Notes under the pieces: model-generated | What the model saw: only the letters and a program-made list of their open reading frames with translations | The model's database searches: none | What the model was told of the DNA's origin: nothing | Program-made: the position numbers and the translations under genes | Shown: positions 3,407 through 44,060 of the stretch, piece after piece | How positions within the stretch are numbered: the first letter of the stretch is position 1 | How the letters are laid out: each line of letters begins with the position of its first letter | Assembly: GCF_002914585.1 (NCBI RefSeq) | Contig: NZ_PDDM01000007.1 | Span: forward strand, 1 to 64,000 | DNA length: 64,000 bases | Direction of reading: 5' to 3' | Source of the DNA: Pseudanabaena sp. BC1403 | Lineage (GTDB): Bacteria > Cyanobacteriota > Cyanobacteriia > Pseudanabaenales > Pseudanabaenaceae

Positions 3407-6260
3407 CTTCCATCCAGTTTTTGCCAGTATGAATATCTACTTCTAGCTTTACCGAAAGCTCTAAAGCTGATTCCATCGCTGCTTTAATTTTGGGTTGCAG
3501 TTCTGAAACTTCATCTGGTGGAACTTCAAATACAAGTTCATCATGGACTTGTAAAAGTAGCTTTGCCTGATACCCAGACAAAAGTTCATTCACCCGTAAC
3601 ATGGCAACCTTGATAATATCGGCACTAGTTCCTTGTATTGGCGCATTAACAGCCGATCGCAATAGCGCCGCCTTTTGATAGCCACCGATCTGACTTAGTC
3701 CGCGAAAATAGCGCCGCCTACCTAATATTGTTTTCACATAGCCATCGCGTTCTGCCTCTGCTTCGACACTTTGCATATAACTAGAAATCTTTTCGTAGCG
3801 CTGATTGAACTTATCAATAAATTGCTTGGCTACTTTTACAGGCACACCGATATCACGGCTAAATTTCTGTGCTCCCATACCGTAAATCACGCCATAATTG
3901 ATGATTTTCGCTAGACGACGCTCATCGCTAGTTACTTCTTCTTTCTCTAATAGAAGTTGCGCTGTAACAGTATGTACATCTTCACCAGCATTAAATGCTC
4001 TCATCAATTCAGGCTCTTGACTTAAATGAGCAAGAATCCGCAGTTCAATTTGCGAATAATCTGCCGCCATTAATATCCAATCTTCTTTTGGCAAAAAGCC
4101 TGCTCTAATCCGCTTGCTAAAGGCAGTACGAATGGGAATATTTTGTAAGTTAGGATTAGAACTACTCAAACGTCCAGTCGAAGCGACAGTTTGATTAAAA
4201 TCAGTATGTACTCGCCCAGTCTTGGGTTGAATCAGCGATGGTAAAGCGTCAACATAAGTGGATTTGAGTTTAGCAAGGGTGCGATTTTCGAGAATGGTAT
4301 CAATCAGAGGCTCACCTTCTAATTTATTAAGTACAGTAACATCAGTAGAGAATCCAGTCTTACTTTTGCGAGATGCCTTCTCAAATTTGCCGCCAAGTTT
4401 GTCCAATAAAATCTCGCTCAATTGCTTAGGTGAATTGAGATTAAATTCTTTGCCAGCTTGGGCATAAGCTGCGATCGCAAGAGCATCCAAATCCTTCTCT
4501 AATTCCAAGGAAAAAGCACTCAAAAACTCTCTGTCGATCCTAATCCCACGCCATTCCATCTCGGCAAGAATCGGCTCTAAAGCCATTTCCACATTTTGAA
4601 ATAAATCCCAAAGCTCAGGTATTGCGGTTAGTTGTGCTTGCAAAATAGGCACAAGGTGATAGGTAAGATAGGTATCCATCCCGCAATATTGAGCAACCAA
4701 AGGGATGGCAATTTCTGCGATCGATTTGCGCTTACCGACTAACGTTTTATAACTAACAGTGCGAATCTGGAGCAAGTCCATCGCCATATCATCCAGCTTA
4801 TGACTTGCTTCTGGATCGATCACATAACTAGCAATCATCGTATCGAATACCACACCTGCTAGCTCAATCCCCGCCGCCTTAAACATCAAGCGATCGAACT
4901 TGGCATTCTGTAAATATTTCGGATGACTAACATCTTCAAGAATAGGTCGAAGAATCTCTCTAACCTCTTCCCATTTGAGATTTTGTCCTTCACTATGACT
5001 TAAAGGAATATAGGCAACCTCACTAATCGAATCGCCCCAACAACAACCAATTCCTACTAATTCGGCTTCAAAGGGATTTAGTGCCGAGGTTTCCGTATCC
5101 CAAGCCACGGGCTGTTTAGTACTGCGAAGAGTTTCCACTAATTGCTCTAACTTCGCGATCGCATCAATTATCTGTACATCTAACTTTAACGACGCTGAAG
5201 CTGCGATCGCCTGATCAGCCTCCTGTTTGGCAAAGTCAAACCATAACTCCTCATCTTCGTTGTTATCCTGATTTTGAGAGGAATCAGTATTTGTCTCTTT
5301 GCTCTTTGAGACAGGGGCTGAGATTGAAGGCTTCTTCTCAAAATTGCCCGACAACTTGGCATGAATCTGATCGACTCTATTCACAAAAGCCTTCAACTCA
5401 AGCTCTTCTAATAAAGGAATTACTTCGGCAGTATCAAAACCCGTTAATTCACAATCTGCGATCGCCATCGGCAGCGGCACATCAGTTTTGATCGTTGCCA
5501 TAAATTGCGAATGTTTAGCAGCTTCAATCCCTTGCTCTAGCTTAGTTTTAATTGCTCCCTTCATCTTTGGTATAGCTGCTAAAACGTTCTCTAAGCTGCC
5601 ATATTCCTCGATTAACTTAATCGCCGTTTTCTCGCCAATACCCCGCACTCCAGGGATATTATCAGAAGCATCACCACAAAGTGCTTTATAGTCCACGACT
5701 TGCGTAGGTAAAACCCCTAAACGCTCTTTTACCTGATCAGCATGATATTCAACAATCTTATCTTTTTGTCCGATATTTAGCACCGAGATACGTTTATCAA
5801 TATCAATCAATTGAAACAAATCGCGATCGCCACTTAATATCTTAACTGTGTAACCCTCAGCACTCGCCGCCTGTGAGAGAGTTCCCAATACATCATCCGC
5901 CTCAAAACCAGCTTGGGTAATTGCAGGCAGATTCATCGCTGCTAAAACCCTTTGTAAGTTCTGCATATCAGGAATAAAACTTTCAGGAGTTTCGGAACGA
6001 TTTGCTTTGTAAGTATCGTCTATCTCATGGCGAAATGTGGGTACGGCAAGATCAAATGCGATCGCAACAGCCGCAGGTTTTTCGCGATCGAGCATTTCGA
6101 TCAATGCTTTCAAGAAGCCAAAACAGATACTAGTGGGGATTCCTGTCGAGGTGCGCAAGCCGCCTTCTGGCTGTTTACCAAAGGCATAAAAGGCTCTGAA
6201 GGCAAGGGAATGTCCGTCAACGAGTAAAAATGTGGGATGGTTTTGTGCGCTTGAAGTCAT
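3399..6260 (-). CDS. polA: DNA polymerase I
   Basis: A 953-residue three-domain enzyme for repair and Okazaki-fragment maturation. The 5'-3' exonuclease (about 10-290) begins LLVDGHSLAFRAFYAF and has the helix-hairpin stretch GVRGIGEKTAIKLIEEYG. A low-complexity linker (about 305-340) follows. The 3'-5' exonuclease (about 375-560) keeps WDTETSALN (D388, E390), NAKFDRLMF and YCGMDTYLTYHL, so proofreading should be active. The polymerase (about 580-953) carries motif A DYSQIELRILAHLS (D734), motif B RRLAKIINYGVIYGM and motif C QVHDELVFEV. Length is in the normal range for a proofreading cyanobacterial Pol I. The promoter lies in the short gap upstream of 6260. Confidence 0.97.
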   Translation of the reverse strand: MTSSAQNHPTFLLVDGHSLAFRAFYAFGKQPEGGLRTSTGIPTSICFGFLKALIEMLDREKPAAVAIAFDLAVPTFRHEIDDTYKANRSETPESFIPDMQNLQRVLAAMNLPAITQAGFEADDVLGTLSQAASAEGYTVKILSGDRDLFQLIDIDKRISVLNIGQKDKIVEYHADQVKERLGVLPTQVVDYKALCGDASDNIPGVRGIGEKTAIKLIEEYGSLENVLAAIPKMKGAIKTKLEQGIEAAKHSQFMATIKTDVPLPMAIADCELTGFDTAEVIPLLEELELKAFVNRVDQIHAKLSGNFEKKPSISAPVSKSKETNTDSSQNQDNNEDEELWFDFAKQEADQAIAASASLKLDVQIIDAIAKLEQLVETLRSTKQPVAWDTETSALNPFEAELVGIGCCWGDSISEVAYIPLSHSEGQNLKWEEVREILRPILEDVSHPKYLQNAKFDRLMFKAAGIELAGVVFDTMIASYVIDPEASHKLDDMAMDLLQIRTVSYKTLVGKRKSIAEIAIPLVAQYCGMDTYLTYHLVPILQAQLTAIPELWDLFQNVEMALEPILAEMEWRGIRIDREFLSAFSLELEKDLDALAIAAYAQAGKEFNLNSPKQLSEILLDKLGGKFEKASRKSKTGFSTDVTVLNKLEGEPLIDTILENRTLAKLKSTYVDALPSLIQPKTGRVHTDFNQTVASTGRLSSSNPNLQNIPIRTAFSKRIRAGFLPKEDWILMAADYSQIELRILAHLSQEPELMRAFNAGEDVHTVTAQLLLEKEEVTSDERRLAKIINYGVIYGMGAQKFSRDIGVPVKVAKQFIDKFNQRYEKISSYMQSVEAEAERDGYVKTILGRRRYFRGLSQIGGYQKAALLRSAVNAPIQGTSADIIKVAMLRVNELLSGYQAKLLLQVHDELVFEVPPDEVSELQPKIKAAMESALELSVKLEVDIHTGKNWMEAK

Positions 6261-12604: not shown

Positions 12605-13102
12605 ATGATCGAAATGAATGTGGCTGGGATTGCTATCGATGCTGTAAGCCGTAATCCTATCGTACTGCTACGAGATACTTTAGAGCGCAGAGCTTTGCCG
12701 ATCTGGATCGGTGAAACTGAAGCTAAAGCTATTATTGGGGCATTAGATGGTAGACCTCTAGAGCGTCCAATGACCCATGATCTCATGCTTAATTTTCTGG
12801 ATGCATGGGGCATAACTGTTGAGCGGATCGTCGTTCATGCACTCAAAAACAGTACTTTTTATGCCGTAATTACGGTTTCGCAGGGTGATATAAAAAAAGA
12901 AATAGATGCACGTCCTAGTGATGCGATCGCGATCGCCGTACGAGCCAAATGTCCGATCTGGGTAATGGAAGAGGTGATTCTCGAAGCTTCAATTCCTGTA
13001 GATCAGGATGCTGATGAAGCGGAAAGAAGAGCATTCCGAGAATTTTTAGCAAAACTAACTCCAGAGGAATTAGTCAAGAAAAGTGGGCTTGAGAGTAATT
13101 AA
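12605..13102 (+). CDS. Bifunctional nuclease family protein (DUF151)
   Basis: A 165-residue protein of the bifunctional nuclease family: VAGIAIDAVSRNPIVLLRD at the start, then LPIWIGETEAKAIIGALDG and the conserved RPSDAIAIAVRAKCPIWV. Plant and bacterial members show RNase and DNase activity (family knowledge). The C-terminal 35 residues are a charged helix typical of the cyanobacterial version (LTPEEL near the end). The 130-nt leader suggests some post-transcriptional control, but nothing specific is visible. Confidence 0.9.
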   Translation: MIEMNVAGIAIDAVSRNPIVLLRDTLERRALPIWIGETEAKAIIGALDGRPLERPMTHDLMLNFLDAWGITVERIVVHALKNSTFYAVITVSQGDIKKEIDARPSDAIAIAVRAKCPIWVMEEVILEASIPVDQDADEAERRAFREFLAKLTPEELVKKSGLESN

Positions 13103-13156
13103 AACCTCAATAAATAAAGCGCCCGCTACGCGGGCGCTTTATTTATTGAGGTTTTA
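13100..13156. terminator. Bidirectional hairpin between the nuclease and RodZ-like genes
   Basis: Perfect arms 13100-13126 and 13130-13156 (27 nt), loop TAC, GC-rich apex flanked by A-rich and T-rich arms. The left arm starts at the TAA stop of the upstream gene. A terminator for both convergent genes. Confidence 0.8.
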
Positions 13157-30920: not shown

Positions 30921-30971
30921 GAATCTAGAGCTTGCGCCTCCCGCTAGGCGGGAGGCGCAAGCTCTAGATTC
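30921..30971. terminator. Hairpin between the rsmD and hydrolase genes
   Basis: Perfect arms 30921-30944 and 30948-30971 (24 nt), loop TAG, GC-TAG-GC apex. It lies downstream of rsmD (minus strand) and upstream of the hydrolase. It probably terminates rsmD transcription. Confidence 0.75.
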
Positions 30972-32314: not shown

Positions 32315-33418
32315 ATGACTTCTAAAAGTTCGCTTAACTACCAACAATTGCAACCAATTTATCTACAGCGTGAGTTGCTTCAATATCAGCGTACTTTACT
32401 TGCTAATGTCGGAATTTTAGTCGGTCTAACCGCTATTGGCACATTGGGATATCGATTCATCGAAGGATGGAGTTGGTTTGATTCCCTCTATATGACAATT
32501 ATTACCCTTGCCACGATTGGTTATGGCGAAACTAATCCGCTACATTTCGAGGGACGAATTTTTACGCTTACTCTAATCGTAATGGGAGTTTTAAGCATTA
32601 GTTATATCGCCGCTCAATTTACAGCAGCGATCGCTAATGGTCATATCTATAATATTTTTCAAGCGAGGCGACAGAAAAGGGTTATGGATGCATTAGACAA
32701 ACACTATATAGTTTGTGGCTTTGGTCGAACGGGGCGACAGGTTACAGCAGAATTCGCGGCTGAGGGGAGTATTCAATTTGTGGTAATTGATAGCGATCCC
32801 ATGGCGATCGAGCAAGCCGAGCTAGCTGGATATCCATCTTTACTGGGAGATGCGGCTCTCGACAACACATTACTTCTTGCGGGGATTGAACGATCTGTTT
32901 GTATTGTGGCAGCTCTGCCATCGGATGCTGAAAATCTCTATACGGTATTATCGGCAAAAACCTTAAATCCTGAAATTAGGGCGATCGCTAGAGCCAGTAC
33001 TGAAGAGTCGATGCAAAAGTTACGGCGCGGTGGAGCAGATGAAGTAATTTCGCCATATATTACTGGCGGAAAACGTATGGCGGCAGTGGCTTTACGTCCG
33101 CAGGTGATGGATTTTGTCGATGGCATTATCGCTGGGGCAAATCGCTCATTTTATATTGAGGAATATCGCATTGATGACTCTAACTATGTCGGAGTCTCTT
33201 TGAAAAAGGCAAGTTTGAGATCGCAGACTGGAGCTTTAGTATTAGCAATTCGTCGGGCTGATGGCGATGTAATTGCGGGGCCCGATGGCAATACTGAGAT
33301 TTTGCAAGGTGATGTTTTAATTTCAATGGGAACGCCTGAGCAACTAAGAGCACTCAATCAGTTACTCAGTCCCATTTCTAAAAAACAAAACGTTCTTCGG
33401 TTGCCGCGTACTAAGTAG
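32315..33418 (+). CDS. Two-TM potassium channel with RCK (TrkA-N/TrkA-C) domain
   Basis: A 367-residue Kch-type channel subunit. Two membrane segments (about 31-50 and 85-107) flank a pore loop with selectivity filter TLATIGYGETNP. A cytosolic RCK domain follows: Rossmann fingerprint YIVCGFGRTGRQV, then VVIDSDPMAIEQAELAG, and a TrkA-C domain from about 270 (GVSLKKASLRSQTG, ILQGDVLISMGTPEQL). The RCK senses nucleotide or cation to gate K+ flux (family knowledge). A shared promoter region lies between it and the divergent unknown gene. Confidence 0.92.
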   Translation: MTSKSSLNYQQLQPIYLQRELLQYQRTLLANVGILVGLTAIGTLGYRFIEGWSWFDSLYMTIITLATIGYGETNPLHFEGRIFTLTLIVMGVLSISYIAAQFTAAIANGHIYNIFQARRQKRVMDALDKHYIVCGFGRTGRQVTAEFAAEGSIQFVVIDSDPMAIEQAELAGYPSLLGDAALDNTLLLAGIERSVCIVAALPSDAENLYTVLSAKTLNPEIRAIARASTEESMQKLRRGGADEVISPYITGGKRMAAVALRPQVMDFVDGIIAGANRSFYIEEYRIDDSNYVGVSLKKASLRSQTGALVLAIRRADGDVIAGPDGNTEILQGDVLISMGTPEQLRALNQLLSPISKKQNVLRLPRTK

Positions 33419-33424
33419 CTAATT

Positions 33425-34198
33425 GTGAAGTTTATTTCTCCATCTCGAACTATCCAAATTGCGATCGCTATAGCCATTAATTCAGAATTTCAGCTTTTGC
33501 TAGATCCTAGAGAAATTGGGCTGGAGATTTGCTATCCAAAATATGATGCCCATTACACATCGGCAATCGCGTTGTCGATCGCCAATCGCTTACAGAGAAA
33601 TCCTATACAGATAGCTGATGCGATCGCGCAAACTTGCGCACAAAATCCAGAAATATCTGCTCAATCGCAAATCAGAGCATTTGGCAAAGGTTGGTTAAAT
33701 ATAGTTTTTAGTGAGCAATATATCGCTGAAATTTTATTGTTTCTGGAGAATTTGCGAATAGAAGGAATTACGAACTGTGATGGATTCTGGCAAAAATGCG
33801 AAATTGTTCTAATTCCTATAGGGGATTCAACTGAACAATATGTCTATACCCGATGCTGTGCACTTATGCGTTTGGCGCAGCAATTAAATGTAGGGGCAAT
33901 TCATGAATTGCCCCTACATTTAATTGCTGATTTAGAACCTGTGGAAATTAGTTTGTTAATGCGAAGTTTGGCGATCGCAGATTATTTAGCAGATGAGAAT
34001 GACTCGCCTTTAAATAGACAGAAGAAACAGAAATTATCGCGATCGCTAGCTGAAGCTTTTTTGCATTTTTACGATCGCTGTCGAATTTTTGGAGTACCTC
34101 ATGAAATTGCGATCAAGCGATTATTACTAATTAGCATTACGCAAAAAATGCTACTCGCGATCGCACCATCCGAAATTAATTATGCGACGTACTTGTAA
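33425..34198 (+). CDS. Stand-alone DALR anticodon-binding-domain protein (ArgRS-derived)
   Basis: A 257-residue protein from a GTG start. The N-terminal part resembles the ArgRS N-terminal domain (YDAHYTSAIALSIANRLQRN, then AFGKGWLNIVFS). The C-terminal part resembles a DALR domain (LSRSLAEAFLHFYDRCRI, KRLLLISITQKMLLAIAP). The catalytic Rossmann domain of arginyl-tRNA synthetase (HIGH/KMSKS) is missing between them. It is known as a free-standing cyanobacterial family of uncertain function. Residues VGAIHELPLHLIA in the middle are encoded by a perfect 52-nt palindrome, apparently an inserted repeat. It starts 7 bp after the K+ channel gene. Confidence 0.75.
   Translation: MKFISPSRTIQIAIAIAINSEFQLLLDPREIGLEICYPKYDAHYTSAIALSIANRLQRNPIQIADAIAQTCAQNPEISAQSQIRAFGKGWLNIVFSEQYIAEILLFLENLRIEGITNCDGFWQKCEIVLIPIGDSTEQYVYTRCCALMRLAQQLNVGAIHELPLHLIADLEPVEISLLMRSLAIADYLADENDSPLNRQKKQKLSRSLAEAFLHFYDRCRIFGVPHEIAIKRLLLISITQKMLLAIAPSEINYATYL
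33878..33929. repeat. 52-nt perfect palindrome inserted in frame in the DALR gene
   Basis: Each base from 33878 to 33929 pairs with its mirror around the centre CATG at 33902-33905. The core TAGGGGCAATTCATGAATTG and its complement is an interspersed cyanobacterial repeat (recognised from general knowledge). It encodes LNVGAIHELPLHLIA without breaking the frame. Confidence 0.9.
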
Positions 34199-34243
34199 AA
34201 AGCATAAGGTTGCGCCCCTGCGGGGCGCAACCTTATGCTTTTT
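34197..34243. terminator. Bidirectional hairpin between the DALR gene and queA
   Basis: Perfect arms 34197-34218 and 34222-34243 (22 nt), loop TGC, with A-run and T-run ends. The left arm covers part of the TAA stop of the DALR gene and the right arm reaches the queA stop. Confidence 0.8.
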
Positions 34244-35300
34244 ATCGCAGCATCAACATGGCATCACCAAAGGAATAAAAACGATATTCTTTAGCGATCG
34301 CTTCTTGATATACCGACATTAAAAATTCGCGCCCATTTTCACCCAAAAATGATGACATCATCATTAGCAAAGTTGACTTGGGTAAATGAAAATTAGTCAC
34401 CATTCCATCTAAAACTCGCCACTCATATCCAGAATAAATCATCAAATTCGTTTTACCCCTAAAAGCCTGAAAATTTGAATTTTCCAGCGATCGCGCCACC
34501 GTACTACCAACACCGATCACACGCCCGCCGTTTGCTTTGGTTTCTTTGATTTTAGCGATCGTCTCCTCAGGCACTTCACACCACTCGTTATGCATCACAT
34601 GCTGAGTGATGTCCTCCGTCTCTACAGGGCGAAATGTACCGATTCCCACATGTAAAGTCACAAATGCTTTACCAATACCCTTAGCCGCCAGCTTTTCAAA
34701 TAGCGACTCGGTAAAATGTAAACCTGCTGTAGGTGCAGCGATCGCCCCTGAGATCTCAGCGTAAATCGTCTGATAGCGATCAGGATCAGCATGGGAATCG
34801 GTGACGTAGGGCGGCAAAGGCACTGTACCTAGTTGATCGATAATTTTGTCAAGGTCAGCACCAGCAGGAATATAAAATTGCAATTCTCTTGCTCTGGTGG
34901 TTGTCTCAATCCCTTCGACCGTCGCTTTGACATTATCCGAAAAGATGATCGTGCTACCAATCGGCAAGCGCTTACCAGGCTTAACCAATGCCAACCATCG
35001 ATCAGGTCCAACTGGTTCCATCAGCAAAATCTCGACAGGCACACCCGATTGCTTACGCCCATACATTCTCGCAGGAATGACTTTGGTGTTATTAAAAACA
35101 AGCAAATCTCCTGCCTTCAAAAAATCTGGCAAATCATAAAAGTGCTGATGCCGTAAATTGCGATCGCTTTCAATTACCAAAAGCCGCGAAGTATCCCTTG
35201 GCGTAACTGGATCTTGAGCTATGCGATCGCTTGGCAATTCATAGTCATAGGCGCTTAATGCATAATCAGGATCAAGTTCAGTCGCAGGCGATGAAGTCAT
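34242..35300 (-). CDS. queA: S-adenosylmethionine:tRNA ribosyltransferase-isomerase
   Basis: About 352 residues if started at the Met of MTSSPATELDPDYALSAYDY (35300); 16 further upstream codons are open. QueA transfers the ribosyl group of SAM to 7-aminomethyl-7-deazaguanine in tRNA to form epoxyqueuosine. Signature stretches: YELPSDRIAQDPVTPRDTSRLLVIE, DLLVFNNTKVIPARMYG, AAPTAGLHFTESLFEKL, THVGIGTFRPVETEDI-like (read here as LHVGIGTFRPVETEDI) and LHLPKSTLLMMMSSFLG. Length normal. No other queuosine genes nearby. Confidence 0.95.
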   Translation of the reverse strand: MTSSPATELDPDYALSAYDYELPSDRIAQDPVTPRDTSRLLVIESDRNLRHQHFYDLPDFLKAGDLLVFNNTKVIPARMYGRKQSGVPVEILLMEPVGPDRWLALVKPGKRLPIGSTIIFSDNVKATVEGIETTTRARELQFYIPAGADLDKIIDQLGTVPLPPYVTDSHADPDRYQTIYAEISGAIAAPTAGLHFTESLFEKLAAKGIGKAFVTLHVGIGTFRPVETEDITQHVMHNEWCEVPEETIAKIKETKANGGRVIGVGSTVARSLENSNFQAFRGKTNLMIYSGYEWRVLDGMVTNFHLPKSTLLMMMSSFLGENGREFLMSVYQEAIAKEYRFYSFGDAMLMLR

Positions 35301-36054: not shown

Positions 36055-36107
36055 ATTAATGACAAAAGAAAAGCAGCGCTTGGCGCTGCTTTTCTTTTGT
36101 CATTAAT
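36055..36107. terminator. Hairpin after the 66-residue gene
   Basis: Perfect arms 36055-36079 and 36083-36107 (25 nt), loop TTG, apex GC-TTG-GC, T-rich on the 3' side. It may terminate the plus-strand transcript. Confidence 0.7.
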
Positions 36108-43950: not shown

Positions 43951-44060
43951 TACTAAGGAATGAAAATTAATTAAAACCAAAATTTGTTGGGGCGGGCTTC
44001 GCCCGCCCCAACAAATTTTGGTTTTAATTGCACAGGTTAATTAATTTTCATTCCTAAGTA
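43951..44060. repeat. Compound nested palindrome
   Basis: The inner stem has 27-nt arms around TTC (GGGCGGGC-TTC-GCCCGCCC core with AAATTTTGG-type outer part). It sits inside outer arms at 43951-43970 and 44041-44060 (one mismatch). The right side has a short unpaired insertion. About 110 bp in all. Confidence 0.75.

Follow-up and report, generated by a model that had tools for sequence, protein, structure and literature searches.

The window considered here, a stretch of 64,000 nt from Pseudanabaena sp. BC1403 (GCF_002914585.1, contig NZ_PDDM01000007.1, positions 1 to 64,000 of the forward strand), contains a perfect palindrome of 52 nt that is read in frame inside a gene coding for a protein with a DALR anticodon-binding domain. 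In what follows, G000 denotes the genome of the window (an assembly in 88 contigs), other G numbers denote other genomes of the genus, and L numbers denote the loci examined. The features of the locus are:

33425–34198, forward strand: host gene, coding for a 257-aa protein with arginyl-tRNA synthetase (ArgRS) N-terminal and DALR anticodon-binding domains; not a full ArgRS, the catalytic domain being absent (open reading frame (ORF) and Pfam).
33878–33929: exact 52-nt palindrome (direct reverse-complement comparison).
33890–33917: predicted mobile core GTAGGGGCAATTCATGAATTGCCCCTAC, read as VGAIHELPL(H) and classed as a GTAG 'double foot' repetitive extragenic palindrome (REP) (copy counts and frame analysis).
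33878–33889, forward strand: left outer arm CAGCAATTAAAT, coding for QQLN; host sequence, presumed template (resembles the left flank in G008).
33918–33929, forward strand: right outer arm ATTTAATTGCTG; host sequence, presumed rewritten copy (G019 has ATTTAGAATCTG and G008 has ATTTAGAAACTG at the same place).
33923–33926, forward strand: four adjacent substitutions with respect to G019 (and G008), which complete the palindrome (flank comparison).

The stretch 33878–33929 coincides with its own reverse complement over all 52 nt, as claimed in an earlier note on this DNA, and the flanking G (33877) and A (33930) are unpaired. It covers codons 152–168 and one base of codon 169, coding for the peptide QQLN VGAIHELPLH LIA; its position in frame inside the DALR gene, a 257-codon ORF, had also been recognized correctly. 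Hairpins with arms of at least 12 nt number 25 in the window, compared with 1, 1 and 0 in three first-order Markov copies, and a chance origin of the palindrome is therefore excluded. Both domains of the host protein scored above the Pfam cut-off (Arg_tRNA_synt_N, 33.0 bits; DALR_1, 33.8 bits), and the protein is a diverged one of the ArgRS N-domain plus DALR type. A phmmer search of the solved structures with the window protein returned no chain at E up to 1; Pfam, together with the alignment of the ArgRS of locus L184 with 3fnr, suggests that the core-bearing loop connects helices 1 and 2, in the early part of the DALR domain.

The palindrome has two layers: the repeated unit is the 28-nt core, and the outer 12-nt arms are host sequence specific to the DALR locus. 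The inner 22 nt of the core occur at 67 sites of the genome with up to three mismatches (none for a reversed-pattern control), at least 32 of the places listed being exact. This agrees with the earlier description of the core as a dispersed cyanobacterial palindrome, and further loci are found elsewhere. Eleven of the places listed have two mismatches; nine of these are symmetric, and six of the nine share one variant, AGGG...CCCT, which may represent a subfamily. In a scan of genome contigs, the exact 28-mer was found at no fewer than 115 loci of other genomes. Judging 80 of these by title, 30 are cyanobacterial and 50 are not so named (four of them being only 'bacterium'). Grouped by title, the matches listed fall into about fifteen phylum-level groups, including Nitrospirae, Omnitrophica, Planctomycetota, Zixibacteria, Deltaproteobacteria, Spirochaetota, Chloroflexi, Bacteroidetes and Aminicenantes. 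Many copies (L008, L014, L085, L096 and others) lie within a unit resembling a miniature inverted-repeat transposable element (MITE), with ends TAGGACTTACGCA and TGCGTAAGTCCTA.

The core carries GTAG at its 5' foot and the complementary CTAC at its 3' end (33890–33917), is dispersed in many copies, and in other genomes lies in frame within TnpA_REP genes (L173, L180, L207 and L315), all of which are marks of double foot REPs. Judged by its sequence, the core is thus a REP of a known kind, namely the 'double foot' type of the subclass 2.4 TnpA_REP family, this subclass being assigned from the published description and not by its authors' profiles. We class it as a REP of this type without claiming an active REPtron.

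The Y1/RAYT transposases of L173 (Brocadia), L180 (Gracilimonas) and L207 carry the exact core in frame, immediately after the HuH motif. In the cyanobacterial transposase L315:1501–2103, the exact core is followed by HELPL repeats, the REP inside the gene having expanded into a series of HELPL units. The transposase of L151 contains a diverged AGAIHELPLPE, and the exact core is found just upstream. Relatives of the L207 protein are present in 90 of 292 genomes drawn from the host phylum; of 34 such loci taken for reading one gave no match, and of the other 33, which include L315, 15 showed an internal palindrome with arms of at least 9 nt, GTAG-tagged in 11 cases. The genome of the window has five Y1 loci and two L207-related genes (C20 and C30), the latter two with other GTAG repeats. 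When its Y1 transposase L049 was used as query, relatives were found in 5 of the at least 115 core loci.

Only one frame of the core is open. Frame 0 reads VGAIHELPL, frames 1 and 2 contain TAG and TGA, and, the core being palindromic, both strands read alike. A coding copy must therefore read VGAIHELPL and, because of the stops in the other two frames, never breaks the frame with this sequence. Among 244 core copies examined, 30 lie in ORFs of at least 120 aa with 30 nt to spare, and owing to the same stops all 30 are in frame 0, although the set may include spurious ORFs and contains a few duplicates. One coding copy is in a metagenome-assembled genome (MAG nzgw234, L184), which encodes at 4310–5875 a full-length ArgRS (Pfam tRNA-synt_1d, DALR_1 and Arg_tRNA_synt_N); the same DALR loop of this enzyme carries the exact core, in frame, in what looks like an independent insertion. 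Further coding copies occur in SelA (L143), an Eco57I-type methylase (L173, two copies), YchF (L235) and a ketoacyl synthase (L169), and the P-type ATPase L177:4943–7753 holds two, VGAIHESPLQ and VGAIHELPLQ. In addition, a 35-nt hairpin, NQADFAKQNLPDI, is located in frame at G018:C68:3020–3054, within a 685-codon ORF that we assume to resemble the DNA ligase LigA.

The DALR gene is present in all 26 genomes of the genus. The core occupies the same loop in five of them (G000, G008, G018, G019 and G016), three others (G005, G012 and G022) have a different hairpin there, with arms of 13–16 nt, and in the remaining 18 the best arm at the loop is 4–7 nt. The insertion of a mobile REP palindrome into the DALR gene is very likely, but the inserted unit would be the 28-nt core and not, as first supposed, the whole 52 nt, because the arms are specific to the locus. 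The insertion does not appear to be recent either, contrary to the earlier note, since 5 of 26 genomes share the position of the core; what looks younger is the present arms alone. The alignment with homologues that the note had proposed confirmed that the 17-residue segment is absent from 18 of the 26, both as DNA and as peptide. However, the loop is about as long in these homologues, so that the segment is not a simple addition of 17 residues: among the 23 homologues with cleanly placed ends (the pattern set the loop end too far for G016, G006 and probably G017), the loop measures 29–38 residues with or without the core, compared with 31 in G000. The core thus seems to sit in a loop that varies anyway.

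The comparison of the flanks of the core gave information on the origin of the arms. The right flank is ATTTAGAAACTG in G008 and ATTTAGAATCTG in G019; both share ATTTAGAA[AT]CTG, a repeat of the conserved downstream ATTTAGAACCTG. The right arm of G000 differs by four adjacent changes, which turn it into the exact complement of the left arm. The state seen in G008 and G019 is the older one, because the gene tree (loop omitted) joins G000 with G008 (support 86), and that of G000 is derived, because the motif of the other two species repeats conserved downstream sequence. The left arm of G000 resembles the left flank of G008, except for 9 extra nt in G008 and two substitutions, and is therefore presumed to have served as template for the right arm. 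One arm is thus derived, with clustered changes at 33923–33926 exactly complementary to the other arm, which is the signature of a template switch. The arms were likely, though not provenly, made by fold-back template switching after insertion. Of the 'recent insertion or correction' proposed in the earlier note, the second, applied to the arms, is the more apt. A second case is G016, a perfect palindrome with 12-nt arms GCTCAAAATAAT and ATTATTTTGAGC, which are exact complements but unlike those of G000 in sequence; the first codons of its left arm match the conserved RLAQ found in G000. In G018 the perfect palindrome measures 58–60 nt. By this comparison, the clean cases of template switching at the DALR locus appear to be G000 and G016 only.

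Taken together, these data point to an old REP insertion followed by rewriting of the arms by fold-back copying seeded by the REP hairpin, a reading to which we assign a probability of roughly 0.7. A double foot REP copy, presumably mobilized by a TnpA_REP, would have entered the loop between the first two DALR helices before the split of at least five species of the Pseudanabaena group. The core would persist in coding sequence only in its stop-free frame, in either orientation, and would always add VGAIHELPL. The stable REP hairpin would then act as a seed, on which the replicating strand may fold back, and the polymerase would copy the 5' flank in reverse, so that the 3' flank becomes its complement. 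In G000, the right flank would have been rewritten in frame, which completed the exact palindrome of 52 nt; other arms, or none, would have arisen from this seed in other species. Most likely, the VGAIHELPL peptide has no function of its own and is tolerated by the loop. Template switching is known to make and to mend stems, and the intrastrand model of Monttinen and Löytynoja corrects by the 5' side (PMC8794818); copying from left to right on the coding strand fits this model.

Arms are found at other copies of the core as well. The 29 exact 28-nt copies read in the window's genome extend as palindromes by 0–16 nt, each with its own sequence, and 17 of them by at least 4 nt. After removal of MITE-like copies (11 of 29 in G000, 6 of 15 in G008, 15 of 28 in G018, 9 of 19 in G019, and 24 of 118 in other records, where 4 more were dropped for lying too close to an end), extensions of at least 5 nt were observed in 11 of 18 copies of G000, against 0.72 expected when right flanks were shuffled among copies. 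Other records provided 118 copies, 21 of which extend by at least 5 nt; after the same removal, the figure is 18 of 90, compared with 0.72 expected by the flank shuffle. In G008 the shuffle control was itself high (2.67 of 9 expected, 8 observed). At L092, where the core lies just upstream of a gene starting VTIRVAINGFG (which we take to be GAPDH), the arms are caaaaag, cagaaag or gataaag with matching partners: they differ across five species and yet mirror each other (orthologues L368, L369, L370 and L372).

In orthologous hairpins at other places the two arms likewise vary in step, as seen in four related contigs (76 of the 93 comparisons made, namely those in which 70% or more of the arm could be aligned). 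Counting some pairs in both directions, so that the figures are not independent, 1298 base pairs were unchanged, 77 had changed on both sides and were paired, 10 had changed on both sides and were unpaired, and 90 had changed on one side. In the hairpin at 30921–30971, three bases are missing from G008, the same ones in each arm, and other species differ by paired changes. The loop of the hairpin at 36055–36107 is TTG in G000, G008 and G018 and CAA in G019, an apparent loop inversion of the kind that marks template switching. The 25 hairpins of the window are near-perfect (e.g. 13100–13156, 34196–34244, 36055–36107 and 43969–44029), often with a 3-nt loop and GC-closed, and 40 hairpins were counted in five 20-kb stretches of the genus, compared with 6 in fifteen 20-kb stretches of other cyanobacteria. 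The same fold-back process, acting on other hairpins, could be the source of the very many perfect hairpins of the genus. Loss of SbcD was considered as their cause and rejected, as an SbcD match was present in 26 of 26 genus genomes (SbcC, ExoI and ExoVII were outside the search).

It should be noted that several observations weigh against an old insertion with hairpin-seeded rewriting of the arms. No switching event has been observed. At the DALR site, the arms extend for just 5 nt in G008 and 2 nt in G019, and the right arm of G018 can equally well be read as a direct duplication of 21 nt in which two positions differ. Growth from the seed is not universal: 81 of the 118 copies outside the genus extend by 0–1 nt. 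Arms also frequently stay unchanged, the extension being identical in all compared species at 7 of 18 aligned core sites. Some long extensions in G000 (L003, L089 and L091) belong to MITE-like sequence, in which the terminal repeats are palindromic in any case. Among orthologous hairpins, one-sided changes are as common as two-sided ones (90 versus 77), and as these hairpins are mostly non-coding, selection on RNA stems could account equally well for the paired changes. As to the mobilizing enzyme, no TnpA_REP with this core was found in the 88 contigs of G000, i.e. no cognate TnpA_REP in the same genome, and the core was present in 0 of the 12 + 3 genus loci read; in G018, which has 97 core copies (up to one mismatch), a search with the L315 transposase likewise found nothing at E up to 0.001. 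The cognate transposase gene may have been lost from the host, and since no core-bearing transposase was found in G000 or in the genus loci read, present activity of the core is, on sequence grounds, unproven.

A further difficulty concerns the single insertion. The core is identical in G000 and G016, while the rest of the gene is 73.5% identical; such identity would rarely be left by one old insertion and ordinary drift, because 0.735^28 = 0.0002. Re-insertion, conversion or a hidden constraint are possible explanations. It is conceivable that the loop received the core more than once (as a separate event in G016, for example) or that the core was refreshed from other copies, a view also favoured by the ArgRS of the distant MAG, hit in the same loop, and by the presence of another hairpin there in G005, G012 and G022. 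However, the site is common to the four closest species, and G005, G012 and G022 retain CTCTACATTTAGAACC or CCCTACATTTAGAACC, which can be interpreted as resembling the old right junction; the gene tree, a short one, gives support of 86 and 63 to the nodes in question. We consider repeated insertion unlikely, but it deserves serious attention.

It is less probable, and in our opinion rather improbable, that the element was inserted together with its arms, i.e. that the REP entered a pre-existing hairpin or that a longer palindrome was mobilized, the 52 nt being one unit. GTAG-15 dimers are reported inside long palindromes in Anabaena variabilis (PMC3733652), some core copies lie in MITE-like palindromic sequence, and at L003 the core is missing along with its arms from the relatives G008 and G018. 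In contrast, at the DALR site the core of G008 and G019 is nearly armless, the arms differ among the five species, and the 18 core-free homologues show no hairpin with arms above 7 nt; moreover, L246 and L010 have the same left flank but right arms of 12 and 6 nt.

Selection could also have kept the hairpin as RNA or DNA, if the stem functions in the message (stability, pausing or attenuation). The folding energy is considerable: –37.4 kcal/mol for the 52 nt, and –47.7 for the 120-nt linker, compared with a mean of –28.8 (sd 4.9) for synonymous recodings, of which 1 in 300 reached –47.9. The paired changes in non-coding hairpins are also those that selection predicts, many of these hairpins being probably terminators. 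However, a role of the DALR copy as an intrinsic terminator was rejected, because no T tract follows the stem and a terminator scan gave 0 sites in 33300–34500. In addition, 18 of the 26 homologues have no hairpin at the site, and a structural function leaves the four adjacent one-step changes unexplained. A selected stem therefore seems to us a poor prospect. Finally, although perfect palindromes can trouble sequencing, arms due to chance or to an assembly artefact are hardly credible, as separate assemblies show comparable but different palindromes and flank shuffles give far fewer extensions.

If the arms were indeed rewritten around an old REP, a mobile repeat of 28 nt with one open frame would be both a ready-made peptide tag and a seed diversifying the surrounding loop. 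One could go further and regard the lodged REP as a lasting local mutator, whose hairpin repeatedly triggers fold-back copying and in-frame rewriting, differently in each species; we put this forward tentatively, giving it somewhat less than an even chance. With a series of related species that have the core in common but not the arms, the growth of bacterial palindromes could be tested directly. The insertions into the DALR loop of two distant lineages would offer a natural comparison of the cost of the tag to the protein.

In-frame REPs are known and template switching is known; a literature search of partial coverage found nothing on locus-specific REP arms or on Pseudanabaena hairpins. The closest system is that of the subclass 2.4 TnpA_REP, described with 'double foot' REPs and with REPs in frame in the transposase genes between HuH and Y, in phyla that include Cyanobacteria and Bacteroidetes (Quentin et al., 2018, PMC6006769). 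The published foot GT[AG]G and end C[TC]AC correspond to GTAG and CTAC of the core. However, the window copy is in a DALR gene, no core-bearing transposase was found in the host genome, and locus-specific arms are unmentioned in the available part of that text. Intragenic GTAG REPs have been reported in ORFs including tRNA synthetases and DNA repair genes, with the cyanobacterial families GTAG-12, -15 and -16 (Di Nocera et al., 2013, PMC3733652). The DALR copy is likewise a REP inside an ORF, but the large unpaired loops described for GTAG-15 are not seen in the window core.

The likeness to Rickettsia palindromic elements (RPEs) suggested in the earlier note, i.e. palindromic repeats in frame within coding genes, is valid as an analogy but not as a family relationship: the R. 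conorii intragenic repeats RPE-4 and RPE-6 are filed as CGTC repeats (PMC3733652), whereas the window core is GTAG-tagged. Such elements are stated to lose repeat identity with time (Mikhailov et al., PMC6649704). The same source describes coding palindromes in nematomorph mitochondria, which are also perfect and dynamic inverted repeats in coding genes, and whose perfection was proposed to be maintained by conversion or template switching; unlike the palindrome studied here, they have no mobile seed, both arms code for conserved protein regions, and they are much longer. Template-switch mutations share with the DALR locus the adjacent substitutions that make arms complementary and the replacement of several residues in coding genes (PMC8794818, PMC8604942). 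The difference is that in those cases the starting inverted repeats are ordinary sequence, whereas at the DALR locus a mobile REP would supply the hairpin.
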